A stretch of DNA of 64,000 bases from Hasllibacter sp. MH4015 (GTDB lineage Bacteria > Pseudomonadota > Alphaproteobacteria > Rhodobacterales > Rhodobacteraceae). Position 1 is the first letter of the stretch, and each line of letters opens with the position of its first letter. Position numbers and translations under genes: made by a program. The notes under the pieces are model-generated. The model did not search any database. It was not told the origin of the DNA and saw only the letters and a list, made by a program, of their open reading frames with translations. Below, in pieces: positions 40,869 through 61,260 of this stretch. Where the stretch lies: contig NZ_JAHTBK010000001.1 in assembly GCF_020177575.1 (NCBI RefSeq), forward strand, positions 3,054,001-3,118,000, in the 5' to 3' direction.

Positions 40869-42506
40869 ATGACGAATTGTATTTCAATTCGACTTTTCGG
40901 CGCCTTTCGGCTGGAGACGGTCGAGGGGGAGGAAATCTTGATCCGCAGCGCGAAGCTGCGTGGATTGATTGCCTTGCTTGCCCTGGCCCCTGATGGAACC
41001 CATTCACGTTCATGGATCCAGCAGGTCCTGTGGGGGAGGTCCGGATCGGAATTAGGACGATCCAGTCTGCGTCGTGCTCTGTCGGACCTCAGGCGGAGCA
41101 TGGGCGAGACGTTCGAGCTCCTTTTCTCCGCCACGAATTCCGAGGTGCGGCTGAACCAGGCCGCGGTGCAGATTACTGGGTCGCCCAGTGACGGCGAATT
41201 TCTCGAAGGTATCGACATCAACGAACCGCGGTTCAACGAATGGCTGTCCGAGCGGCGAGAGCAGGCCTATGACCGCCGTCTGCGCCTCCCGTCCGTCATC
41301 AGTGCCCGCCTTTCGCCGTCGGTCTGCGTGGTGCCATTCTGCCCGGTCGTCCCCGATGAGCAGGCCCGGCACCTCGGCGATCTTATGGCGCTCGAAGTGA
41401 CGCGAGACCTGTCGCGCTGCACGATTGTCGATACGATCTCGCACCTGTCCAGCCGACGATTTCAGTACCCAACGCTCGATCTTGCGACGCTTCGCCAACA
41501 GCTCAACGCCGATTACCTGCTGTTCGGCACGATCCGCCTGATGGGGACGGAGCTTGCCGTGTCCTGCGACCTCGTCGAATTGCAATCGGAACGTGTGTGC
41601 TGGAGCCGGCAATTGTCCATGGCCCTGTCGGAAATCTCTGCCGCGGATTGGGCCGCCCCGCGCGACATCGCGCAAATGACGCTGGAGACGATCCTGTCAC
41701 AATCGGTCCATGCGGTACAAAGCCGGGATCGCTTCCGCCTTCAGGTTCACCAACGCCTGATGGCCGCCATCAGCATGATGCACCAGCACCAGAAGGTCGT
41801 GGTGCAGCAGGCACGCACCTTGATGGAGGAGCTGATCGAGGAATTTCCCGGCCACGCCGTTCTACATGCCTGGCTTGCGAAGTTCTACATTCTCAATGCC
41901 AACCAAGCATGGAGCACGGACATCAAGGCAGACGGCGCGCGTGCGCTGCATCTGGTCCAGCAGGCACTGGCGCTTGACCCGGCCTGCTCGTTCTCCCGTG
42001 CGATCCACGGCATGGTGTTAAGCCATTTTCACGATGATTTCACGCGCGGCGCGATCGAGATGGACATGGCGTTAGAGACCGATTCCAGCAACTCGCTGGC
42101 GTGGCTCCTCAAAGGCGCGATGCTGTCGTTCTCGGACCAAGGGGCGGAGGCTGTGCTGTGCACCTCGAAGGCGCGCAACCTGTCGCCGCTTGATCCGCAT
42201 CGCTACTACTTCGATTGCCTGTCTGGAACGGCGCATCTGGCCATAGAGGATTACGGAACCGCGCTTCGCTTGGCAGAGCGGTCGTATCTGGCCAACCCGC
42301 GCCATGCCTCCACCCTTCGCGTTCGCACCATTGCCCTGCAAAACCTCGACCGCCACGAAGACGCGGTGCAAAGCGCGCAGGAAATCTTGCAGCGCGACCC
42401 GAATTTCACCGTCGAGGGCTACCTGAAATTCCACCCGGCCGCCAATTTCCGGACCGGTGAGAACTGGGCCAAGGCCCTGTCGGACGCGGGCATACCGCTG
42501 CGCTAA
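40869..42506 (+). CDS. SARP-type winged-helix / TolB-like / TPR regulator
   Basis: The protein has 545 residues from ATG 40869, preceded by GGAGGGG. Residues 1-85 are a SARP/OmpR-type winged helix (ISIRLFGAFRLE, LRGLIALLALAPDGTHSR, then SLRRALSDLRRSM). Residues about 145-270 resemble a TolB-N/FlgO-like domain (VCVVPFCPVV, LMALEVTRDLSRCTIVDTISHL, ADYLLFGTIRLMGTELAVSCDLV). Residues about 310-525 are helical TPR-like repeats. It lacks any membrane segment. Its gene precedes the haloperoxidase-like and subtilase genes and probably controls them. Confidence 0.8.
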   Translation: MTNCISIRLFGAFRLETVEGEEILIRSAKLRGLIALLALAPDGTHSRSWIQQVLWGRSGSELGRSSLRRALSDLRRSMGETFELLFSATNSEVRLNQAAVQITGSPSDGEFLEGIDINEPRFNEWLSERREQAYDRRLRLPSVISARLSPSVCVVPFCPVVPDEQARHLGDLMALEVTRDLSRCTIVDTISHLSSRRFQYPTLDLATLRQQLNADYLLFGTIRLMGTELAVSCDLVELQSERVCWSRQLSMALSEISAADWAAPRDIAQMTLETILSQSVHAVQSRDRFRLQVHQRLMAAISMMHQHQKVVVQQARTLMEELIEEFPGHAVLHAWLAKFYILNANQAWSTDIKADGARALHLVQQALALDPACSFSRAIHGMVLSHFHDDFTRGAIEMDMALETDSSNSLAWLLKGAMLSFSDQGAEAVLCTSKARNLSPLDPHRYYFDCLSGTAHLAIEDYGTALRLAERSYLANPRHASTLRVRTIALQNLDRHEDAVQSAQEILQRDPNFTVEGYLKFHPAANFRTGENWAKALSDAGIPLR

Positions 42507-42527
42507 CCTAAGAAGAGAGTATCTGCG

Positions 42528-43745
42528 ATGTCGACCACAGCAACATCATCGGGCGCCTCCGGGGCGTCAGGCGCTTCCGGCGCGTCGGGTGCATCCGGGG
42601 CCTCCGGCGCATCGGGAGCGTCAGGCGCGTCCGGAGCCTCGGGCGCATCTGGTGCGTCGGGGGCTTCCGGCGCATCCGGCGCGGCAGGCAGCTACGGTTC
42701 CTTCCTGTCGGGCGCGTCGATCATGGCGCGCGACGGGATCGCGGGATATTGGCAGCACAGCACGCGGACCCCGCCGCACCTGGCAGATTCCGACGCCTAC
42801 GCGCGCTTCAGCGCTCCGTGGGTCCGTGCCATCACGATGGAGAACGAGATCGTCGGCCCGCTGGTTTTCAAGGAGCGGAACGATTGCGACGACGCTAATA
42901 CGCCAGCCGTTTCCATCTATCACACCGCCAAGACCATCCCCGACGCGGCACCGGCCTTGGGTGACGTCGCCGATCTGGAAACCCAGACGCAACTGCTCGC
43001 CGATCTGATTGCGCCGACCCCGGCCATCCTCGCCCAGCAACTCGACCTTGTGGCCAATTACATTCCGCAACGGAGCGAACGGCTTGGCGAGGCTGTGGGC
43101 CAGATCGGGTTTCCGACGCCGTTTTTCGAAACGGTCCTGCCGCTGCACCCGGCGTCCAGGAAATTCACGCGAGAGTTGGTGAGCATTGCGCAATCTTCGG
43201 CGTCCGAAGTCGTGATACGGGTCAAGAAGGCCCTGCGATGCCGCCGCCCGAACGAATTCTCCCCGCAATTGCAACCCATCGTGCCCACCCCGGGCCATGG
43301 AACGCTGCCAAGCGGTCATTCGACCGAGGCTTTTGTCGTTGCCCGGATGCTCGATCACCTGATGAACGACACCGGCTACGATGGCGGCGCATCCGATTGG
43401 GCGACGATGCTTTTGCGCCAAGCCCATCGCATCGCGGTAAACCGCACTGTTGCGGGGGTGCATTTCCCCGTGGATTCGCTTGCCGGTGCCGCACTTGGCC
43501 TGATGTTGGGCGACTACATCGTCAGCCTCGCGAAACAAGATGCCGGAGAGATCGGGGCCTTCAAGTTCGTCGGGTCCGAGATGGGGTCGCGCGACTTCTT
43601 GTTCGGCAGCTACTTCGCCGGGACTGCGCTGCAATTGCAGGACGGCATTTCGGAGCTGCCCCAGAATGTCGGCTTGGCCCACGGGGTCGAGGATGCGCCG
43701 ACCCTCGCATGGCTCTGGACCAAGGCGATGGAAGAATGGGCCTGA
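42528..43745 (+). CDS. Vanadium haloperoxidase/PAP2-fold protein with Ser-Gly-Ala repeat N-terminus
   Basis: The protein has 405 residues. Residues 8-52 are fifteen Ser-Gly-Ala tripeptides. The C-terminal half holds the three PAP2/vanadium haloperoxidase motifs: Lys-x6-Arg-Pro in KKALRCRRP near 232-240, PSGHST at 261-266, and Arg306-x5-His312-x3-Asp316 in NRTVAGVHFPVD. All phosphate/vanadate-binding residues are present, so phosphatase or haloperoxidase activity is possible. There is no signal peptide. It follows the regulator by 21 nt and precedes the subtilase by 13 nt. Confidence 0.8.
   Translation: MSTTATSSGASGASGASGASGASGASGASGASGASGASGASGASGASGASGAAGSYGSFLSGASIMARDGIAGYWQHSTRTPPHLADSDAYARFSAPWVRAITMENEIVGPLVFKERNDCDDANTPAVSIYHTAKTIPDAAPALGDVADLETQTQLLADLIAPTPAILAQQLDLVANYIPQRSERLGEAVGQIGFPTPFFETVLPLHPASRKFTRELVSIAQSSASEVVIRVKKALRCRRPNEFSPQLQPIVPTPGHGTLPSGHSTEAFVVARMLDHLMNDTGYDGGASDWATMLLRQAHRIAVNRTVAGVHFPVDSLAGAALGLMLGDYIVSLAKQDAGEIGAFKFVGSEMGSRDFLFGSYFAGTALQLQDGISELPQNVGLAHGVEDAPTLAWLWTKAMEEWA
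42549..42683 (+). repeat. (Ser-Gly-Ala)15 coding repeat
   Basis: Fifteen 9-nt units encode Ser-Gly-Ala without exception, but codons vary widely (TCN, GGN and GCN are mixed from unit to unit). The protein sequence is therefore kept while the DNA has diverged, indicating selection on the peptide and not a recent slippage expansion. Confidence 0.9.
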
Positions 43746-43758
43746 GGGGGACAACGCC

Positions 43759-45705
43759 ATGCCGTTGACCTACGCATTGGCAAAACGCGCCTCCACGCCC
43801 GCGACCGCATCGGGCGAACCGCTCGACCCCTATACGGACTGGGACACGTCCGAAGGGGCCGCATATAGCGAAATCTCACGGCTTGGGGCGGTCCGGCCCG
43901 AAGTCGTGTCCGCGCGTCATGTTTTGAACCTTGATCCCATGGCGCGAGATGTCCGGGTGGAGACGTTGGGACGGGACGGCCAGAACCGTGAACCTTTTGA
44001 CAAGGCCGGTGGAAAGGCACGGGTGATAAGCCGTCTTCCAGTGCCACCGTCCAGTATCCCGCTGTCACCGCCCAAGTCGGACGGAACACAGGGGGGTGCG
44101 CATGTCCTGCATGACGGCGCGAACCCCGCCAACATGGTGATAACCGCGATTATCGACACCGCGATAAATCCCTTCAACACACGCTTCCGGGTGCCGTCGC
44201 CGGACGGATCCATCCGCGGAGCACGCTGCGACTATATCTGGGCGCAGGCCGCCAAGAGCGATCCGATGTCCCCGGTCCCATTCGGGCGCGCGTGGATTCG
44301 CAAGGACCTTGAGGCGGAAATGGGCCGCTCGGCTGAGGATGAGGCGTTGTGGATGACCCATCTTGGCCTGATCTCGGACACGACCTCGGAATTCGGCGCA
44401 TCGCGCTTGAGCCTTGGCCACGGTACGCATGTCCTCGACGCAGCTGCCGGTTATGACCCGGATGTCGGGGACCGGGCGCGGGACCACCGGATCATCGCGG
44501 TGGAATTGCCGGAACTCGTGACGGCCGACACGTCGGGAAGCGCGCTTTATGGTGTTGTGCTGTGCGGTTTGCGGTACATCTTCGACCGGGCCGAACAGAT
44601 CTGCATCGCCGCGTCCCGCCCGGTTCCCCTCGTCCTGAACTTCAGCTTCGGCCTTGGAGCCGGTCCCCACGATGGCACGCATCCAATCGAGGCTGCGTTT
44701 CGCAGGATGCTTGCGGATTACGTGGAACGGATCGAGACGCTGTTTCCCAAGCGTCACGATGATGCCTCGGTGAAGGCGGACATCGTGCTGCCCGCCGGAA
44801 ACCGGCGTCTTGCCCAGGGCCACGCAATGTCGGACCGTGTGGATGCAAAGACCTCCTCCACAATTCTTAACCTCAGCTGGAAGACGCAACCGGCGGACCA
44901 CAGCTCCAATTATCTTGAGGTTTGGGCGCCCCTTGGTGCGCATATCTCCAAGGTCGCGCTACAGCCGCCCGGTGGCGGGCAGGAGTTGATTTGGACAATA
45001 CCGAAAGGCCGCATGCCCCACAGCATCGACATCACCCTGAACGACGCCGTGATCGGCAGGATGAACGTCGACCACCCCTATGCCAATGACAAGGACCCGG
45101 GTGCGTGCCGAACCGTGCGCCTGCTCATCGCGCTTGCCGGGACCGAAAATTACGACGGCGCCCCGATGTGCGAGCCCGGGCCTTGGCAGGTCAGCGTGGC
45201 AGCAGATGGACTGAGCAAGGGTCAATCCCTCCATGCCTGGGTGCAACGCGACGATCAGGCACTGGGCTTCGTCACACGGGGGCGGCCCTCTTACCTGGAC
45301 GAAGCCCCGTACGAAGGATCAAGGCGCCTGCCGCAGGGTGAAACGCGGGCAACCGATCCCGGCGATGACGGCGCCATCATCCGCCGGGCCGCGACGCTCA
45401 ACGGGCTGGCAACCCGTCCGCGCGACGGCGTGATCGAGGACCGCATACACATCATCGGTGGGATCTATGGCGAATTTGACGAAGCCTTGCATCTGCAGGG
45501 TAAAGAGGCGCCCTATTCCGCCTTGGGCGAGGGCGCGAAGACCAAATGCTACGTCCACGATCCCAACGCCCACAGGGCGAGCGACCGGTCCATTGATCGG
45601 TGGGGGCAATTCGCCGCCGGTATGCAAAGCGGTGCCGTCCGCGCGATGAATGGAACCAGCGTGGCGGCCCCGATCTATTCACGGGAGATTTTGGCGCGCG
45701 ATTGA
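43759..45705 (+). CDS. S8 (subtilisin-like) serine protease with large insertion
   Basis: The protein has 648 residues from ATG 43759. The catalytic set is complete and in subtilisin order: Asp133 in IIDTAIN, His221 in GHGTHV, the oxyanion Asn348 in PAGN, and Ser634 in NGTSVAAP. Between Asn348 and Ser634 lie about 285 residues, much more than in subtilisin, with beta-rich sequence resembling a jelly-roll insertion (SNYLEVWAPLGAHISKVAL). No signal peptide or propeptide is obvious, so it may act in the cytoplasm or leave by an unidentified route. It is the third gene of the regulator operon. Confidence 0.85.
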   Translation: MPLTYALAKRASTPATASGEPLDPYTDWDTSEGAAYSEISRLGAVRPEVVSARHVLNLDPMARDVRVETLGRDGQNREPFDKAGGKARVISRLPVPPSSIPLSPPKSDGTQGGAHVLHDGANPANMVITAIIDTAINPFNTRFRVPSPDGSIRGARCDYIWAQAAKSDPMSPVPFGRAWIRKDLEAEMGRSAEDEALWMTHLGLISDTTSEFGASRLSLGHGTHVLDAAAGYDPDVGDRARDHRIIAVELPELVTADTSGSALYGVVLCGLRYIFDRAEQICIAASRPVPLVLNFSFGLGAGPHDGTHPIEAAFRRMLADYVERIETLFPKRHDDASVKADIVLPAGNRRLAQGHAMSDRVDAKTSSTILNLSWKTQPADHSSNYLEVWAPLGAHISKVALQPPGGGQELIWTIPKGRMPHSIDITLNDAVIGRMNVDHPYANDKDPGACRTVRLLIALAGTENYDGAPMCEPGPWQVSVAADGLSKGQSLHAWVQRDDQALGFVTRGRPSYLDEAPYEGSRRLPQGETRATDPGDDGAIIRRAATLNGLATRPRDGVIEDRIHIIGGIYGEFDEALHLQGKEAPYSALGEGAKTKCYVHDPNAHRASDRSIDRWGQFAAGMQSGAVRAMNGTSVAAPIYSREILARD

Positions 45706-45755: not shown

Positions 45756-46325
45756 ATGCCGTCCATGACCGACAAGGAAGAGATGATCGCCGCCGCCGCC
45801 ATCCGGGTCTTTTCCCGCTATGGCCTTAAGCGCGCGACGATGAACGATGTAGCGGACGAGGCAGGCGTAGTGCGCCAGACCCTCTACAACGTGTTTTCCA
45901 ACAAGAACGAGGTGATCGAGGGCGCGATCCGATACTATTGTGCCGGGATCCTGCAACGGACCCTAGCCGATTGGGACGGCGCGCAGACGCTGTCCGAAAA
46001 GCTCGATATCCTGTTCCAACATGCCGTGATTGACCCCTGGGACGCTTTAAGGGACGCCCCCGATGCCGCGGAGTTGGAGCAGGCTGCGCATCCGGCCGCA
46101 AGCGCCGCGATGGAGGAAGCCCAGGCCAATATCCATGCAGCCCTCACCGATTTGCTGCGCCCCCACGGACCGGCGCTGGCCGCCAAGGGACAAAGCCCCG
46201 AAAGCCTTGCCGCCTATCTTGTGACGGCGACCCACGGCATCAAACATAACACACCCGACCGTGACCGGTTGCTCGGCCTTCTTGCCACGCTGAAAACTTC
46301 TGTCGAAGTCATGGTGGACGGTTGA
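45756..46325 (+). CDS. TetR-family transcriptional regulator
   Basis: The protein has 189 residues (ATG 45765 is an alternative start). The N-terminal helix-turn-helix is typical: AAIRVFSRYGLKRATMNDVADEAGVVRQTLYNVFSNKNEVIEGAI. The C-terminal ligand domain is helical and not assignable. It stands 110 nt upstream of the molybdenum hydroxylase genes on the same strand, with an inverted repeat between, and probably regulates them. Confidence 0.85.
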   Translation: MPSMTDKEEMIAAAAIRVFSRYGLKRATMNDVADEAGVVRQTLYNVFSNKNEVIEGAIRYYCAGILQRTLADWDGAQTLSEKLDILFQHAVIDPWDALRDAPDAAELEQAAHPAASAAMEEAQANIHAALTDLLRPHGPALAAKGQSPESLAAYLVTATHGIKHNTPDRDRLLGLLATLKTSVEVMVDG

Positions 46326-46330
46326 CCTAT

Positions 46331-46359
46331 TTTGGACACGTATTGACCAATTGTCCAAA
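46331..46359. promoter_or_regulatory. Inverted repeat before the molybdenum hydroxylase operon (putative TetR operator)
   Basis: TTTGGACA (46331-46338) and TGTCCAAA (46352-46359) form a perfect 8-bp inverted repeat with a 13-nt spacer, 77 nt before the first structural gene. TetR proteins often bind such sites. Inferred from position and symmetry. Confidence 0.55.
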
Positions 46360-46435
46360 TCTACGCTACGATACTGACCAACGTCTTTGGCCGATCCCGA
46401 CCAGATGACACCAGACCAATGGACGGAGGCCCCAC

Positions 46436-46894
46436 ATGGAACTGACCGTGAACGGCGAATTGCGGGAGGTCGAGGTCGCGCCCGACATGCCGCTTCTCTG
46501 GGTCTTGCGAGAGGAGCTGGGCCTCACCGGCACGAAATTCGGATGTGGTATTGCGCAATGCGGGGCCTGCACGGTCCATATCGACGGTATCGCGGCGCGG
46601 TCTTGTCAGACGCGGATTGGCGACCTGGCCGGGGCGAACGTTACCACGATAGAGGGTTTGGGGACGCCCGAGGCGCTGCACGCGGTGCAGGCGGCCTGGG
46701 TCGAGCATCAGGTCGCGCAATGCGGCTATTGCCAGTCCGGCCAGGTGATGCAGGCCGTAGCCCTTCTGGATCTCAACCCTGCGCCGACGAATGAAGATAT
46801 TGATCTCGTGATGTCGGGCAACCTTTGCCGGTGCGGCACCTATCCGCGGATCCGGGCCGCAATCCATACCGCCGCCCGCAATCTGGAGGGGTGA
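46436..46894 (+). CDS. (2Fe-2S) subunit of a xanthine dehydrogenase-family hydroxylase (IorA/CoxS-like)
   Basis: The 152-residue protein has both iron-sulfur centres of the family: the plant-ferredoxin type in [16 protein letters not shown] (Cys37, 42, 45 and 57) and the helical type in QCGYCQSGQ with [10 protein letters not shown]. It passes electrons from the molybdenum subunit to the next carrier. No FAD subunit is encoded, matching isoquinoline 1-oxidoreductase and related aldehyde oxidoreductases that use a cytochrome. Confidence 0.92.
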
Positions 46895-46897
46895 GGG

Positions 46898-49138
46898 ATG
46901 AGCAAGCTGAAAACCTTCACCCGCCGCGCATTCCTCGTAGGCTCCGCCGCCGTTGCGGGCGGCGTGGCGTTCGGCACCTACATGGTGCAGCGGCCCCACG
47001 ATAATCCGCTGCTCGACGGACTTGCTGACGGCGCGGCGGCGTTCAATCCCTGGGTGCGCATTGATGCAACCGGGATCACGCTGATCACGCCGCACGCCGA
47101 TATCGGGCAGGGCGTGGCCTCCATGCAGGCCGCACTGATCGCGGAAGAGTTGGACCTGACCTGGGGTGAATTCGAAACCGAATTCGGTCAACCCGCTGCC
47201 GCTTACTGGAACACGGCGATGGCCAATGAAGGCGCGCCCCTCTTGCCGTGGGACGAAAGCTTCGGGGCGCGGACAATGCGAACCTCCGTCTCGTCCCTTG
47301 TGAAAGTGATGGGAGTTCAGGCCACGGGCGGCTCGACGACCACACCCGACAGCTTCATCAAGCTGCGAGAGGCCGGCGCGATGGCGCGGGAAACGCTGAA
47401 ACTGGCCGCAAGCAGGCGAACCGGCATTGCCGTGACCGACCTGCGCACCGAAGGCGGCGCGGTGCATCTGCCGGACGGAACCGCCCTGCCCTACACCGAT
47501 TTGGCGGCGGAGGCCGCATCGCTTGAGCCGGTACAGAACACACCCCTGCGCGATCCGTCCCAGTGGCGTTTGATCGGCAACGACATGCCCCGGATCGACA
47601 TCGTGGCGAAATCTACCGGGACTTTGGCATACGGCATCGACCTTGACGTGCCGGACATGGCGCGCGCATCGCTTCGCATGAACCCCCGCAAGGGCGCGGC
47701 GCTCAACAGCTTCGATGCGAGCGCTGCCGAGGCGATGGAAGGCGTGGAACAGGTGGTGGAGATCACCGGTGGTGTGGCCGTTGTCGCCTCGAACACGTGG
47801 TATGCAATGCAGGCCCTGGACGCGATCGAGTTCGATTGGGCACCAGCCGCTTATCCCGCAGAGCAGGCCGAACATTGGGCGGCCCTTGAGGCAAGCTTTA
47901 CCGAAGAACGCCTGGACAGCGAATGGCTCAATACCGGCAATGTGGACGCGGACATTCCGGGTGCGGAGGTGATGGAGGCCGAATATCGCGTGCCTTATGT
48001 TGCGCATCAGCCGCTGGAACCGCTCAATGCGATCGTGCTTGTGGAAGAGGACGAGGTACAGGTCTGGACCGGCCACCAGATGCCCCGCTTCCTGCAACAG
48101 CAGGTCGCCGCGATCACCGGGCACACGGCGGAACAGATCACGCTGCACAACCAATATTCCGGCGGCTCCTTCGGACATCGACTGGAATTCGACTACGTTC
48201 GGCAAGCCGCGGAAATCGCCATGCAGATGCCTGGTCGGCCGGTGAAGCTCACCTATAGCCGCGAGGATGATTTCGCCCAGGATTTCCCCCGTCAGATCAC
48301 GATGGGACGTGGGCGTGGCGCGGTCGTGAATGGCCAGGTTGTCAGCTTTGACGCCCAGATCGCAGCACCTTCCGTGATCCGCTCTCAGATGAGCCGGATG
48401 GGCCAATCTGTTCCGGGCCCGGATGCGCAATTGGCGGCGGGCGTATGGCAGCAACCTTACGGGTTTGAAAACGCGCGCGTGCGCACCTACGCGGTGGAGG
48501 GGCTTTCCCCCGTCTCCTCCTGGCGGTCCGTCGGTGCTTCGGCCAATGGATTCATCGCGGAGAGCTTTCTTGACGAGCTGATCCATGCCGCCGGTGCCGA
48601 TCCACTGGAAGAACGCATCCGCCTTTGCACCCTCGATGATGTCAGCCTGCGCGTGCTGGAAGCCGTGGGCGAGATGTCGAATTGGGGCGAGGCATTGCCC
48701 GATGGCACAGGTCGCGGCGTTGCCTTCGTGCATTCCTTCGGCGTCCCCACCGCGGAGGTGGTCGAGGTGACGGAAACGGCGGCAGGCATCCGCATCGACA
48801 AGGTCTGGATCGCCGCGGATGTGGGGCGCGTCGTGGATCCGGTGAATTTCGAGAACCTGGTGCAGGGCGGTGTTGTCTGGGGCCTTGGTCACGCGATCAA
48901 TTCGGAGATTACATATTCGGACGGGATTGCCGAGCAGACCAACTTCCACGCCCATGAAGGAATGCGGATGCATCAGACGCCGGAGATCTTCGTGCGTGGG
49001 CTGGAGAACGGACACATTCGCGGCATCGGGGAACCGCCTGTGCCACCCACGCCTCCCGCGCTGGCCAATGCCATTTTCGCCGCCACCGGACAGCGCATCC
49101 GAGAGATGCCGTTCTGGAACCACATCGATTTCGTCTAG
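46898..49138 (+). CDS. Molybdopterin-binding subunit of a xanthine dehydrogenase-family hydroxylase (IorB-like)
   Basis: The 746-residue protein begins with a Tat signal (TRRAFLVGS, Arg9-Arg10), so it is exported folded with its cofactor and partner. Molybdopterin motifs include [29 protein letters not shown], and the catalytic Glu in [18 protein letters not shown] near 711. It oxidises an aldehyde or N-heterocycle with water-derived oxygen. The small subunit starts 4 nt upstream and has no signal of its own, which fits co-export. Confidence 0.9.
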
Positions 49139-49150
49139 GGGGATTGGTCG

Positions 49151-49771
49151 ATGAAACACCCGCTTATCCTCGCACTTGCCGTGATCGGGGCCGCCGGCCT
49201 TGCCCTTGCCGACGGCACCGATGTCGTGATTGATCCGCCCGCAGAAGGCTCCATCACCCAGGCCGAAGGGCTGGCGGCGTGGGGGCGCATATTCGAGGTC
49301 ACGTCCCATCCGCGATGTTCCAATTGCCATGTCGGGCCAGACAATCGCCCCATGTGGTCTGGACCTTCCTACGGCCGCACGCGGCCCCACGGAATGAACA
49401 TCAACGCGGGCGAAAGCAGGATCGGGGCGGAGTACGTTCAATGCCAGACTTGCCACGCCTACAGCGAGGGCGGTGGCAACAATGCGCCGCAGATGGCCCC
49501 GCAAGTGGCGATGACGTGGCAGCTGCCCCCGGTCGAAGCCGAATGGTTCGGGCGCAGCACGGAGGAAATCTGCGCCCAGCTGCGTGATCCCGCCCGCAAT
49601 GGTGACCGGGATATGATCGCGCTGGCCAGCCATCTGGAACATGACCTTATCCTGCATTGGGCGTGGTCGCCGGGTGGCGGACGTGAACCGGCGCCCTATT
49701 CCCTGCAAGAGCATGTGAATGACGTCCTTGCCTGGGGCGTGGCCGGGTATCCCTGCCCGCACGATCAGTGA
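49151..49771 (+). CDS. Periplasmic diheme c-type cytochrome linked to the hydroxylase
   Basis: The protein has 206 residues with a signal peptide (residues 1-20, ending LALA). Two haem attachment sites are CSNCH at 56-60 and CQTCH at 98-102. It is not a standard cytochrome c fold by pattern. It lies 12 nt after the molybdenum subunit and probably accepts its electrons and passes them to the respiratory chain, replacing the absent FAD subunit. Confidence 0.82.
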   Translation: MKHPLILALAVIGAAGLALADGTDVVIDPPAEGSITQAEGLAAWGRIFEVTSHPRCSNCHVGPDNRPMWSGPSYGRTRPHGMNINAGESRIGAEYVQCQTCHAYSEGGGNNAPQMAPQVAMTWQLPPVEAEWFGRSTEEICAQLRDPARNGDRDMIALASHLEHDLILHWAWSPGGGREPAPYSLQEHVNDVLAWGVAGYPCPHDQ

Positions 49772-60699: not shown

Positions 60700-61260
60700 A
60701 TGGCATTCCTTTTCAGCTACGGCGCCGACATCCTCGTCATTCTCGCCAGTCTCGGGGCGATGGCCTACTGCATGATCCTGTCGCGGCGATTGTCGCGGCT
60801 GACATCCTTCGACAAGGGCCTTGGCAGCGCGATCGCCGTGATGTCGAGCCAGGTGGATGAGATGAAATCCGCGCTCCACGAGGCGAAGGCCGGGTCGGAC
60901 GGGGCGGGCACTCATCTGAACGATCTGGTCCACCAGGCGCGGGAGATCTCGGCGGAACTCGAGATGATGATCGCGGCCTGCCACGACTTCGCGGAAGAGG
61001 CGATAACGGTCCAGTCCGAAGCGCCGGAACCCGGGACGCAATCCGAGCTTGATGCTGAGGCTGAGGCTGAGGCTGAGGCTGAGGCTGAGGCTGAGGCTGA
61101 GGATATCTCCGAAGCACCCACCGATGTCGAACCCGATCTCGATGACGAAACGCCAAACGCCATTCCGGTCTTTGGCTCCCGCAGGACAGCCACGGCGAGG
61201 TCTCAGGACACGGCCTCGGTCGAGCCGCTCTTCCGCCACCGCAAATTGGCGGCTGGCTGA
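60700..61260 (+). CDS. FliL-linked membrane protein with (Ala-Glu)8 repeat
   Basis: The protein has 186 residues starting directly after the fliL stop. One TM helix (about 5-25) is followed by a helical coiled region to about residue 100 (SSQVDEMKSALHEAKAGSDG). A long acidic stretch follows with eight perfect Ala-Glu units (residues 119-134) and a basic C-terminus. No family is recognised. The location between fliL and the MotE-like gene points to a role in motor or stator assembly. Confidence 0.7.
   Translation: MAFLFSYGADILVILASLGAMAYCMILSRRLSRLTSFDKGLGSAIAVMSSQVDEMKSALHEAKAGSDGAGTHLNDLVHQAREISAELEMMIAACHDFAEEAITVQSEAPEPGTQSELDAEAEAEAEAEAEAEAEDISEAPTDVEPDLDDETPNAIPVFGSRRTATARSQDTASVEPLFRHRKLAAG
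61054..61101 (+). repeat. Perfect hexanucleotide repeat (GCTGAG)8 inside a coding region
   Basis: Eight identical GCTGAG units encode Ala-Glu dipeptides. The DNA identity is perfect, unlike the codon-varied Ser-Gly-Ala repeat elsewhere. This suggests recent slippage expansion; changes in unit number would stay in frame and only lengthen or shorten the acidic linker. Confidence 0.92.

Follow-up and report, generated by a model that had tools for sequence, protein, structure and literature searches.

A conserved regulator, PAP2-fold enzyme and S8 protease cassette with lineage-specific tandem arrays at the N-terminus of the enzyme

Parts of several described systems resemble the locus considered here, a cassette of three genes in a 64,000-nucleotide stretch of DNA from Hasllibacter sp. 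MH4015 (contig NZ_JAHTBK010000001.1, positions 3,054,001 to 3,118,000; the whole stretch is hereafter called the window, and coordinates refer to it). The cassette encodes a regulator with a TPR tail (REG), a PAP2-fold enzyme that begins with a tandem array of a short amino acid unit, or word, and a subtilisin-like protease of family S8. Class A acid phosphatases and vanadium haloperoxidases share with the PAP2-fold enzyme the K-x6-RP / PSGH / R-x5-H-x3-D set and the helical core; unlike them, the cassette enzyme consists of a core of ~350 residues plus the N-terminal word array. HilA/CadC-type winged-helix regulators and class III cyclases with TPR resemble relatives of REG, in which Trans_reg_C or Guanylate_cyc is followed by TPR (the match of the window REG to the HilA model is weak, far below the model cutoff), but REG differs from both in being tied to the cassette and in having a sensory part that varies with the array of the next gene. 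In the RRNPP systems, we take it that a TPR regulator likewise lies beside a gene with a short, lineage-specific peptide sequence, and that the regulator has a DNA-binding domain different from that of REG; unlike in RRNPP, the array of the cassette stays on the enzyme, as tandem words of 2-4 residues. Finally, the Csp subtilases of Clostridia share with the S8 protease its predicted fold and a beta-rich insert between Asn and Ser, whereas the gene of the S8 protease is linked to those of a PAP2 enzyme and a TPR regulator. To our knowledge, the hosts of the cassette, unlike the Csp-bearing Clostridia, are not known as spore formers. As described in PMC3567191, CspB has a jelly-roll insert and retains its prodomain in vitro, and the Csps cleave their putative substrate SleC at one site.

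Among the open-access PMC papers listed in the searches, no title or abstract start was found to describe the cassette or its arrays (subscription papers and preprints lay outside the search). While the component families are known, neither their combination nor the rule of lineage-private arrays has, within the scope of these searches, been described.

Tandem arrays of short words on the PAP2-fold enzyme

The PAP2-fold enzyme of the window (405 residues, 42528..43745, + strand) starts with a seven-residue leader, followed by an array of 15 Ser-Gly-Ala copies (residues 8-52; 42549..42683, + strand); the count of fifteen given in the initial annotation was reproduced on recounting. This array is one case of a lineage-specific tandem-array rule, which that annotation did not contain. 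Each of the 56 distinct PAP2 frames in the first set had an N-terminal tandem array, and so did 79 of the 80 PAP2 frames of the loci kept from a scan of named genomes with patterns derived from the PAP2 core (80 loci kept of at least 370 relatives); the only arrayless frame of those 80 (L133) begins 117 bases from a contig end. In a further set of 12 PAP2 frames, mostly with weak scores or missing partners, nine had an array, while L188, L190 and L191 were scored arrayless; the frame of L190 is 530 residues long, and the scan covered its first 120 residues. In 41 loci, 566 further frames (mechanically called, 100 residues or longer) were scanned over their first 120 residues, and none had a comparable repeat.

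After pooling and deduplication, 138 arrays were available, made of 77 distinct units after rotation. The unit is 3 residues long in 122 arrays, 4 in 13, 2 in two and 6 in one, and the longest perfect run has a median length of 28 residues. Gly, Ala, Ser and Asn are abundant in the units, while Pro (6.6% of the residues of PAP2 cores) and Cys occur in none of the 77. Some arrays are strongly like-charged (AGR, 11 copies; GKM, nine copies; GGE, nine copies). Imperfect arrays also exist: the longest perfect run falls short of 6 copies in 24 of the 138, and some arrays are interrupted (e.g. GAF, TAM, AAF, AGL). The window array matches the Pfam Collagen model (E 2e-8); however, a collagen triple helix was rejected as a general explanation, because 21 of the 77 units have no Gly, none has Pro, and some are 2 or 4 residues long.

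Orthologues in the genus of the window retain the unit (six with HGQ, two with GGI, three with AGR) and vary in copy number. Likewise, 21 Phaeobacter records were matched, and the nine plasmid loci taken from them share the unit NSF, in 5, 6 or 7 copies. Two complete cassettes adjoin each other in locus L041 (6861-17754), one with the word GS and the other with SAY. Since two random cassettes rarely share a word, such differences between co-resident cassettes are little proof of anything.

The exact repetition does not extend to the DNA. In the window array, the 15 Ser-Gly-Ala copies have 13 different DNA spellings. Throughout the first set, synonymous sites within arrays are saturated (median pS 0.85; pS > 0.3 in 56 of 56), and pN is zero in 46 of 56 arrays; the latter result is partly due to construction, since each array was started from a perfect run and lengthened only across near matches. 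In the arrays that were long enough (114 of 138), adjacent copies shared a codon in 773 of 3077 cases (0.251, versus 0.348 after shuffling; z -13.4), and the deficit persisted when each unit was represented by a single array (64 arrays; 461 of 1747, z -10.3). Codon sharing at lag 2 was instead enriched (z +7.3), which suggests alternation of codons. As a control, equal residues three apart in the PAP2 core shared a codon as often as expected (0.362 versus 0.363). Whole units were repeated side by side about as often as in shuffled arrays (48 versus 52 ± 6.4). For Gly, Ala, Val and others, the arrays use codons more evenly than the cores do; this does not hold for Ser, Leu, Asn and Glu. Because the codons are scrambled and neighbours avoid identical codons, the repeat is maintained at the protein level, and DNA slippage is no explanation for it. 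The simplest reading is selection for protein periodicity combined with loss or avoidance of DNA-identical neighbours. An origin as a microsatellite was rejected in view of the saturated synonymous sites and the avoidance of equal adjacent codons, and an RNA- or DNA-level role of the repeat in view of the scrambled codons. By contrast, an ordinary DNA-level repeat does occur elsewhere in the window (61050-61102), where a hexanucleotide in 8.8 copies, with 97% DNA identity, encodes Glu-Ala repeats in a frame of 186 residues.

Words differ even between close relatives. Two GGV/GGI pairs have PAP2 core identities of 0.906 and 0.924, with identities at four-fold sites of 0.73 and 0.62, respectively; other close pairs with different words are SGV/TGL (core 0.887) and GGF/SGL (core 0.819). 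In both GGV/GGI pairs every copy differs, and four-fold identity inside each array is just 0.22-0.29, so that the new array is unlikely to have arisen by recent tandem expansion. Moreover, the in-register codons at the two Val/Ile switches match at close to the register average (0.34 versus 0.27 and 0.34 versus 0.32), and therefore replacement of the array is likely there. Close pairs with the same unit may be in register, as L077/L078, L004/L094 and L080/L081 are (third-base identities of 1.00, 0.93 and 0.64, for core four-fold identities of 0.92, 0.82 and 0.59), or less so, as in L102/L111 (at best 0.50, versus 0.69 in the core) and L009/L151 (at best 0.29, versus 0.54); arrays therefore also turn over while the word stays constant. 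The pair L152/L160 (MSGG/SGGA) is an exception, with little codon scrambling (0.86 and 0.83 within the arrays).

Conservation of the cassette and divergence of the regulator

In the window, the three genes lie on the + strand, separated by gaps of 21 nucleotides (REG to PAP2) and 13 nucleotides (PAP2 to S8), and re-derivation of the coordinates confirmed this arrangement as initially annotated. In a family set of 295 genomes, one per genus, the window PAP2 as query gave a match at E <= 0.001 in 105; some of these hits covered only the array or were generic PAP2 hits. A 350-position profile built from the PAP2 core gave E <= 1e-15 in 94 genomes and at least 170 bits in 71, with two matches in 14 of these 71. 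Conserved adjacency of the genes had been named beforehand as a test of the proposed operon, and it was borne out: an S8 match lay within 6 kb of 82 of the 85 strong PAP2 matches (at least 170 bits) of the family set, and all three genes were present at 77 of the 80 kept named-genome loci. The three incomplete named-genome loci (L109, L133 and L152) lie near contig ends. As regards the three strong matches with no S8 nearby, one (G118) is on a contig of 5.5 kb, another (G067) lies 316 bases from a contig start, with an S8 match on another contig, and in the third (G056) array and REG are present and S8 was not found. Conversely, nine S8 matches in the family set had no PAP2 match nearby, and several of the eight inspected were longer, distant S8 proteins.

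Gene order was tabulated over 121 loci from two sets (116 distinct, as five occur in both). REG was upstream in 117 of the 121, on the same strand in 100 and divergent in 17, and S8 was downstream on the same strand in 118; among the 83 PAP2-S8 pairs found family-wide, S8 was convergent in 23 and upstream on the same strand in one. A fourth conserved gene was looked for in 41 loci, and no other family occurred in more than nine of them. The trio thus recurs across many genera, and regulator, PAP2 and S8 form a strongly conserved cassette, not a chance association. A known anti-phage system was rejected, as no PADLOC model matched the cassette at E up to 1.

From the titles of their records, the 80 kept loci presumably include 65 from Alphaproteobacteria, 10 from Burkholderiales and two from Gammaproteobacteria. 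The Planctomycetaceae, Anaerolineae and 'Oceanobacillus' records among them may be mislabelled or contaminated; the organism label of L096, titled Oceanobacillus sp. HTM 045, is doubtful, its PAP2 sequence being equal to that of G004 contig C942. In the public plasmid records inspected, the annotation of the three genes is generic ('winged helix', 'PAP2 phosphatase', 'S8 peptidase'). In Phaeobacter inhibens, a cultured host, the cassette is on plasmids. In strain M647 of this species (L198), the frames annotated for REG, PAP2 and S8 are truncated or broken up, through either decay or sequencing errors. In L173 (7598-9541), a single frame of 647 residues reads as the start of REG, a piece of PAP2 and S8; the assembly is of low completeness and possibly chimeric.

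The effect of a change of unit on each protein was estimated, at given PAP2 identity, for pairs with PAP2 identity >0.55. With 129 pairs treated as independent, identity of REG residues 290-545 at a unit change was altered by -0.061 ± 0.012. In a cluster bootstrap (142 usable of 145 pairs, 13 clusters), the effect on the TPR half of REG (residues 340-545; 41886..42503, + strand), the part that most clearly diverges where the repeat unit differs, was -0.082 (95% interval -0.159 to -0.021), and this half was still lowered by 0.047 (0.009-0.068) without Kiloniella. The same procedure gave no clear effect for the winged helix (+0.025, -0.021 to 0.143) or the middle part of REG (-0.025, -0.053 to 0.064), and raised identity for S8 (+0.059, 0.006 to 0.138). 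The positive S8 effect is a leak of differences between groups and is gone with cluster fixed effects, under which S8 was flat (+0.009, p 0.76). In the fixed-effects analysis the TPR half was lowered by 0.055 (within-cluster label permutation p 0.004; -0.042 without Kiloniella, p 0.001), with no drop in the winged helix (-0.003, p 0.47) or in the PAP2 segment beyond the array (-0.008, p 0.33), the last of which counts against bare linkage. The sensory part of REG (the TPR half and, less clearly, the middle part) varies with the word, and the DNA-binding part and S8 do not.

The pattern can be followed along the DNA in Kiloniella, where TPR identity is 0.98 for equal units and 0.65-0.73 for different ones, the winged helix remaining at 0.93-0.98. 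In the SGV/TGL pairs, 30-residue windows of REG are 80-100% identical up to about residue 323 and 50-90% identical beyond; DNA identity drops gradually through the gap and the array and recovers by about PAP2 residue 140. No such dip is seen in the equal-unit pair L095/L119. Judging from these alignments, the block holding the reader half and the array looks like one that was replaced or is diverging fast. A partial Mantel scan of the unit against segments of the three proteins (99 windows) was weak, with a wide background (z -2.9 to +4.1), and its top windows were S8 300-356 and REG 366-395, with two of the best falling around the catalytic Asn of S8.

The three proteins

REG (545 residues, 40869..42506, + strand), a homologue of which is found at nearly all loci, comprises an OmpR-type winged helix, a middle region and a TPR tail. 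The winged-helix, DNA-binding part (residues 1-100; 40869..41168, + strand) was assigned from Pfam matches in relatives, some of which match Trans_reg_C (OmpR-type); in the window proteins themselves, Pfam recognized TPR and PAP2. The winged helix had initially been called SARP-type, an assignment that has to be withdrawn, as the SARP-specific BTAD domain gave no match in the window REG at E up to 1 and none in 25 members at 0.01. What is left of the TolB-like domain described along with it are weak matches to FlgO/LpoB and nothing beyond those. In L034 (7304-9136) and L036 (7359-9257) a class III cyclase domain replaces the winged helix, and this swap of the output domain points to the C-terminal region as the constant, sensing part of REG.

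The catalytic motifs of the PAP2-fold enzyme (K233-x6-R240-P241, P261-S262-G-H264 and R306-x5-H312-x3-D316; 43224..43475, + strand; Pfam PAP2 E 5e-10) are invariant in 38 aligned homologues, S262 nearly so and the G between S262 and H264 outside the invariant list. All the vanadate/phosphate ligands are present, as initially annotated. In the predicted structure (mean pLDDT 83) confidence is very low over the array (below 50). Compared with solved folds, the model ranked class A acid phosphatases first (E about 1e-6), and not a haloperoxidase, the best of which (4usz) had E 0.03. The ligand residues of vanadium haloperoxidases are common to phosphatases, and the predicted enzyme may be either a phosphatase or a haloperoxidase. 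The initial annotation saw no signal peptide on either enzyme. Hydropathy fits this, the maximum 19-residue Kyte-Doolittle value being 1.54 for the window PAP2 (the part after the array) and 1.44 for the S8 frame including 73 residues upstream of its likely start, with values >1.6 in 13 of 113 PAP2 and 10 of 113 S8 homologues; however, hydropathy is no proof, and no dedicated program was used.

The S8 protease (648 residues, 43759..45705, + strand) has its catalytic codons, all on the + strand, at 44155-44157 (D133), 44419-44421 (H221), 44800-44802 (N348) and 45658-45660 (S634). These residues, the Asp-His-Ser triad and the oxyanion Asn, are invariant in 29 aligned homologues, in agreement with the intact set described at the outset; Pfam Peptidase_S8 was recognized in 25 of these 29 members and not in the window S8 itself. 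The predicted structure (pLDDT 79) had its best Foldseek matches in the clostridial proteases CspA/B/C (E about 1e-17 to 1e-19; 13-14% identity), which aligned over most of their length and outranked other subtilases by a wide margin. The 285 residues initially reported as an insertion are in fact the whole interval between Asn348 and Ser634, within which the model places a beta-rich domain at about residues 367-500 (44857..45258, + strand). This predicted insert, located between Asn and the catalytic Ser as in the Csp type, is probably the counterpart of the Csp jelly-roll domain.

Directly 3' of the S8 gene (45756-49771) there follow a TetR-type regulator and, by eye, 2Fe-2S / molybdopterin oxidoreductase and cytochrome-like frames, which are outside the conserved cassette.

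Candidate roles of the array

A possible reading, which we favour without calling it probable, is that the array is a cassette-private tag recognized by the TPR region of REG, the Csp-like protease possibly trimming it. Each cassette lineage would have, in its array of about 3-20 copies of one short word, a multivalent recognition tag of its own, to be read by the TPR half of the adjacent REG; TPR domains are established readers of peptides. Binding would let REG sense the amount of enzyme whose array is intact, and REG would then set expression of the operon or, in the loci with a cyclase in place of the winged helix, a cyclic-nucleotide output; the direction of regulation is presumed. Removal or shortening of the array by the Csp-like protease might end the interaction and/or activate the enzyme. 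The initial suggestion that the regulator reads a TPR-bound signal thereby gains indirect support, in that the TPR half diverges with the word and the array is the likely ligand; binding as such we infer.

It should be noted that several observations weigh against recognition of the array by REG. With cluster fixed effects, the middle part of REG is also lowered (-0.045, p 0.021; without Kiloniella -0.048, p 0.024), and therefore the signal is not confined to the TPR half; in the subset with identity >0.65, the PAP2 segment beyond the array is lowered as well (-0.074, -0.187 to -0.001). Equal-unit and different-unit pairs are both present in only six clusters, and the Val/Ile switches leave the TPR half unchanged. 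Because REG adjoins the array, a shared recombination tract, of which the Kiloniella block could be an example, could link the two without function, and REG is moreover divergent in 17 of the 121 loci. Finally, L181, L186 and L187 are weaker PAP2 relatives with an array beside REG in which S8 was not found, and therefore S8 may not be required; the cassettes of L186 (4449-7495) and L187 (4511-7636) are distant ones, with REG and a PAP2 bearing DAR and GGLN arrays, respectively.

An array so near a protease could alternatively be a cleavage array for the cassette's own S8, with one site per copy, whose trimming activates, releases or times the PAP2 enzyme, in the manner of the putative cleavage of the germination enzyme SleC by Csp proteases. 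S8 nearly always adjoins PAP2 and has invariant catalytic residues, its closest fold is that of CspA/B/C, the array is N-terminal and modelled with the very low confidence of a disordered tail, and Pro is absent from the units; the highest association with the unit in the Mantel scan was also in S8 (300-356), although with that background the peak is weak. S8 identity, however, is not lowered at a unit change, whether with or without fixed effects, and the S8 segments around the catalytic Asn show no visible relation to unit charge, which makes this explanation unlikely; processing of the repeat-bearing protein by the protease, as initially suggested, gained no support from these comparisons. 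The other initial suggestion, an exported complex of the two enzymes, likewise found no support. We are equally doubtful that the array is a homotypic assembly tag, by which chains sharing a word would pack into clusters of silk-like or cross-beta type, so as to concentrate or store the enzyme, and paralogous cassettes would be kept apart by their different words. Such stacking would suit the Gly-, Ala-, Ser- and Asn-rich units with no Pro or Cys, and exact periodicity would permit alignment of chains in many registers, but the like-charged AGR, GKM and GGE arrays should repel each other, and divergence of the sensory part of REG is not predicted; the array is also unstructured in the single-chain model, though assembly could escape such a model.

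Identical copies, lineage-private words, a dedicated protease and a TPR regulator would all be accounted for if the array were a multi-copy precursor of a short peptide signal, from which S8 frees identical peptides of 2-4 residues that are sensed by the TPR region in an RRNPP-like manner. This seems improbable, considering that no export signal was seen (by hydropathy alone), that the words are shorter than what we take to be the length of RRNPP peptides, and that the enzyme bearing the array has an intact active site. Finally, variation in copy number between strains (the 5, 6 or 7 NSF copies of Phaeobacter) and, in 24 arrays, longest perfect runs of under 6 copies, together with the visible interruptions of some arrays, are what would be expected of a neutral microsatellite or a plain flexible linker. 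We give this very little credence, since synonymous sites are saturated while most copies are identical in protein, adjacent copies avoid identical codons, a linker has no need of exact periodicity, and the slippage-type repeat in the same window retains its DNA identity.

Returning to recognition of the array by REG, a wider and more doubtful proposal is that the cassette embodies a new bacterial specificity code, in which the enzyme displays an almost arbitrary word of 2-4 residues and the co-inherited TPR regulator reads it. Lineages would swap the word wholesale, sometimes with array and reader half as one DNA block, leaving the enzyme core and the protease unchanged, and synonymous scrambling would guard against slippage.

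The arrays represent an unusual evolutionary pattern in a widespread module, namely a repeat kept at the protein level, with scrambled codons and with a word that close relatives have replaced. Should the TPR half of REG indeed read the word, at least 77 natural words with matching readers would be a source of orthogonal peptide-receptor pairs, and the cassette would offer a testable system for how specificities change together.

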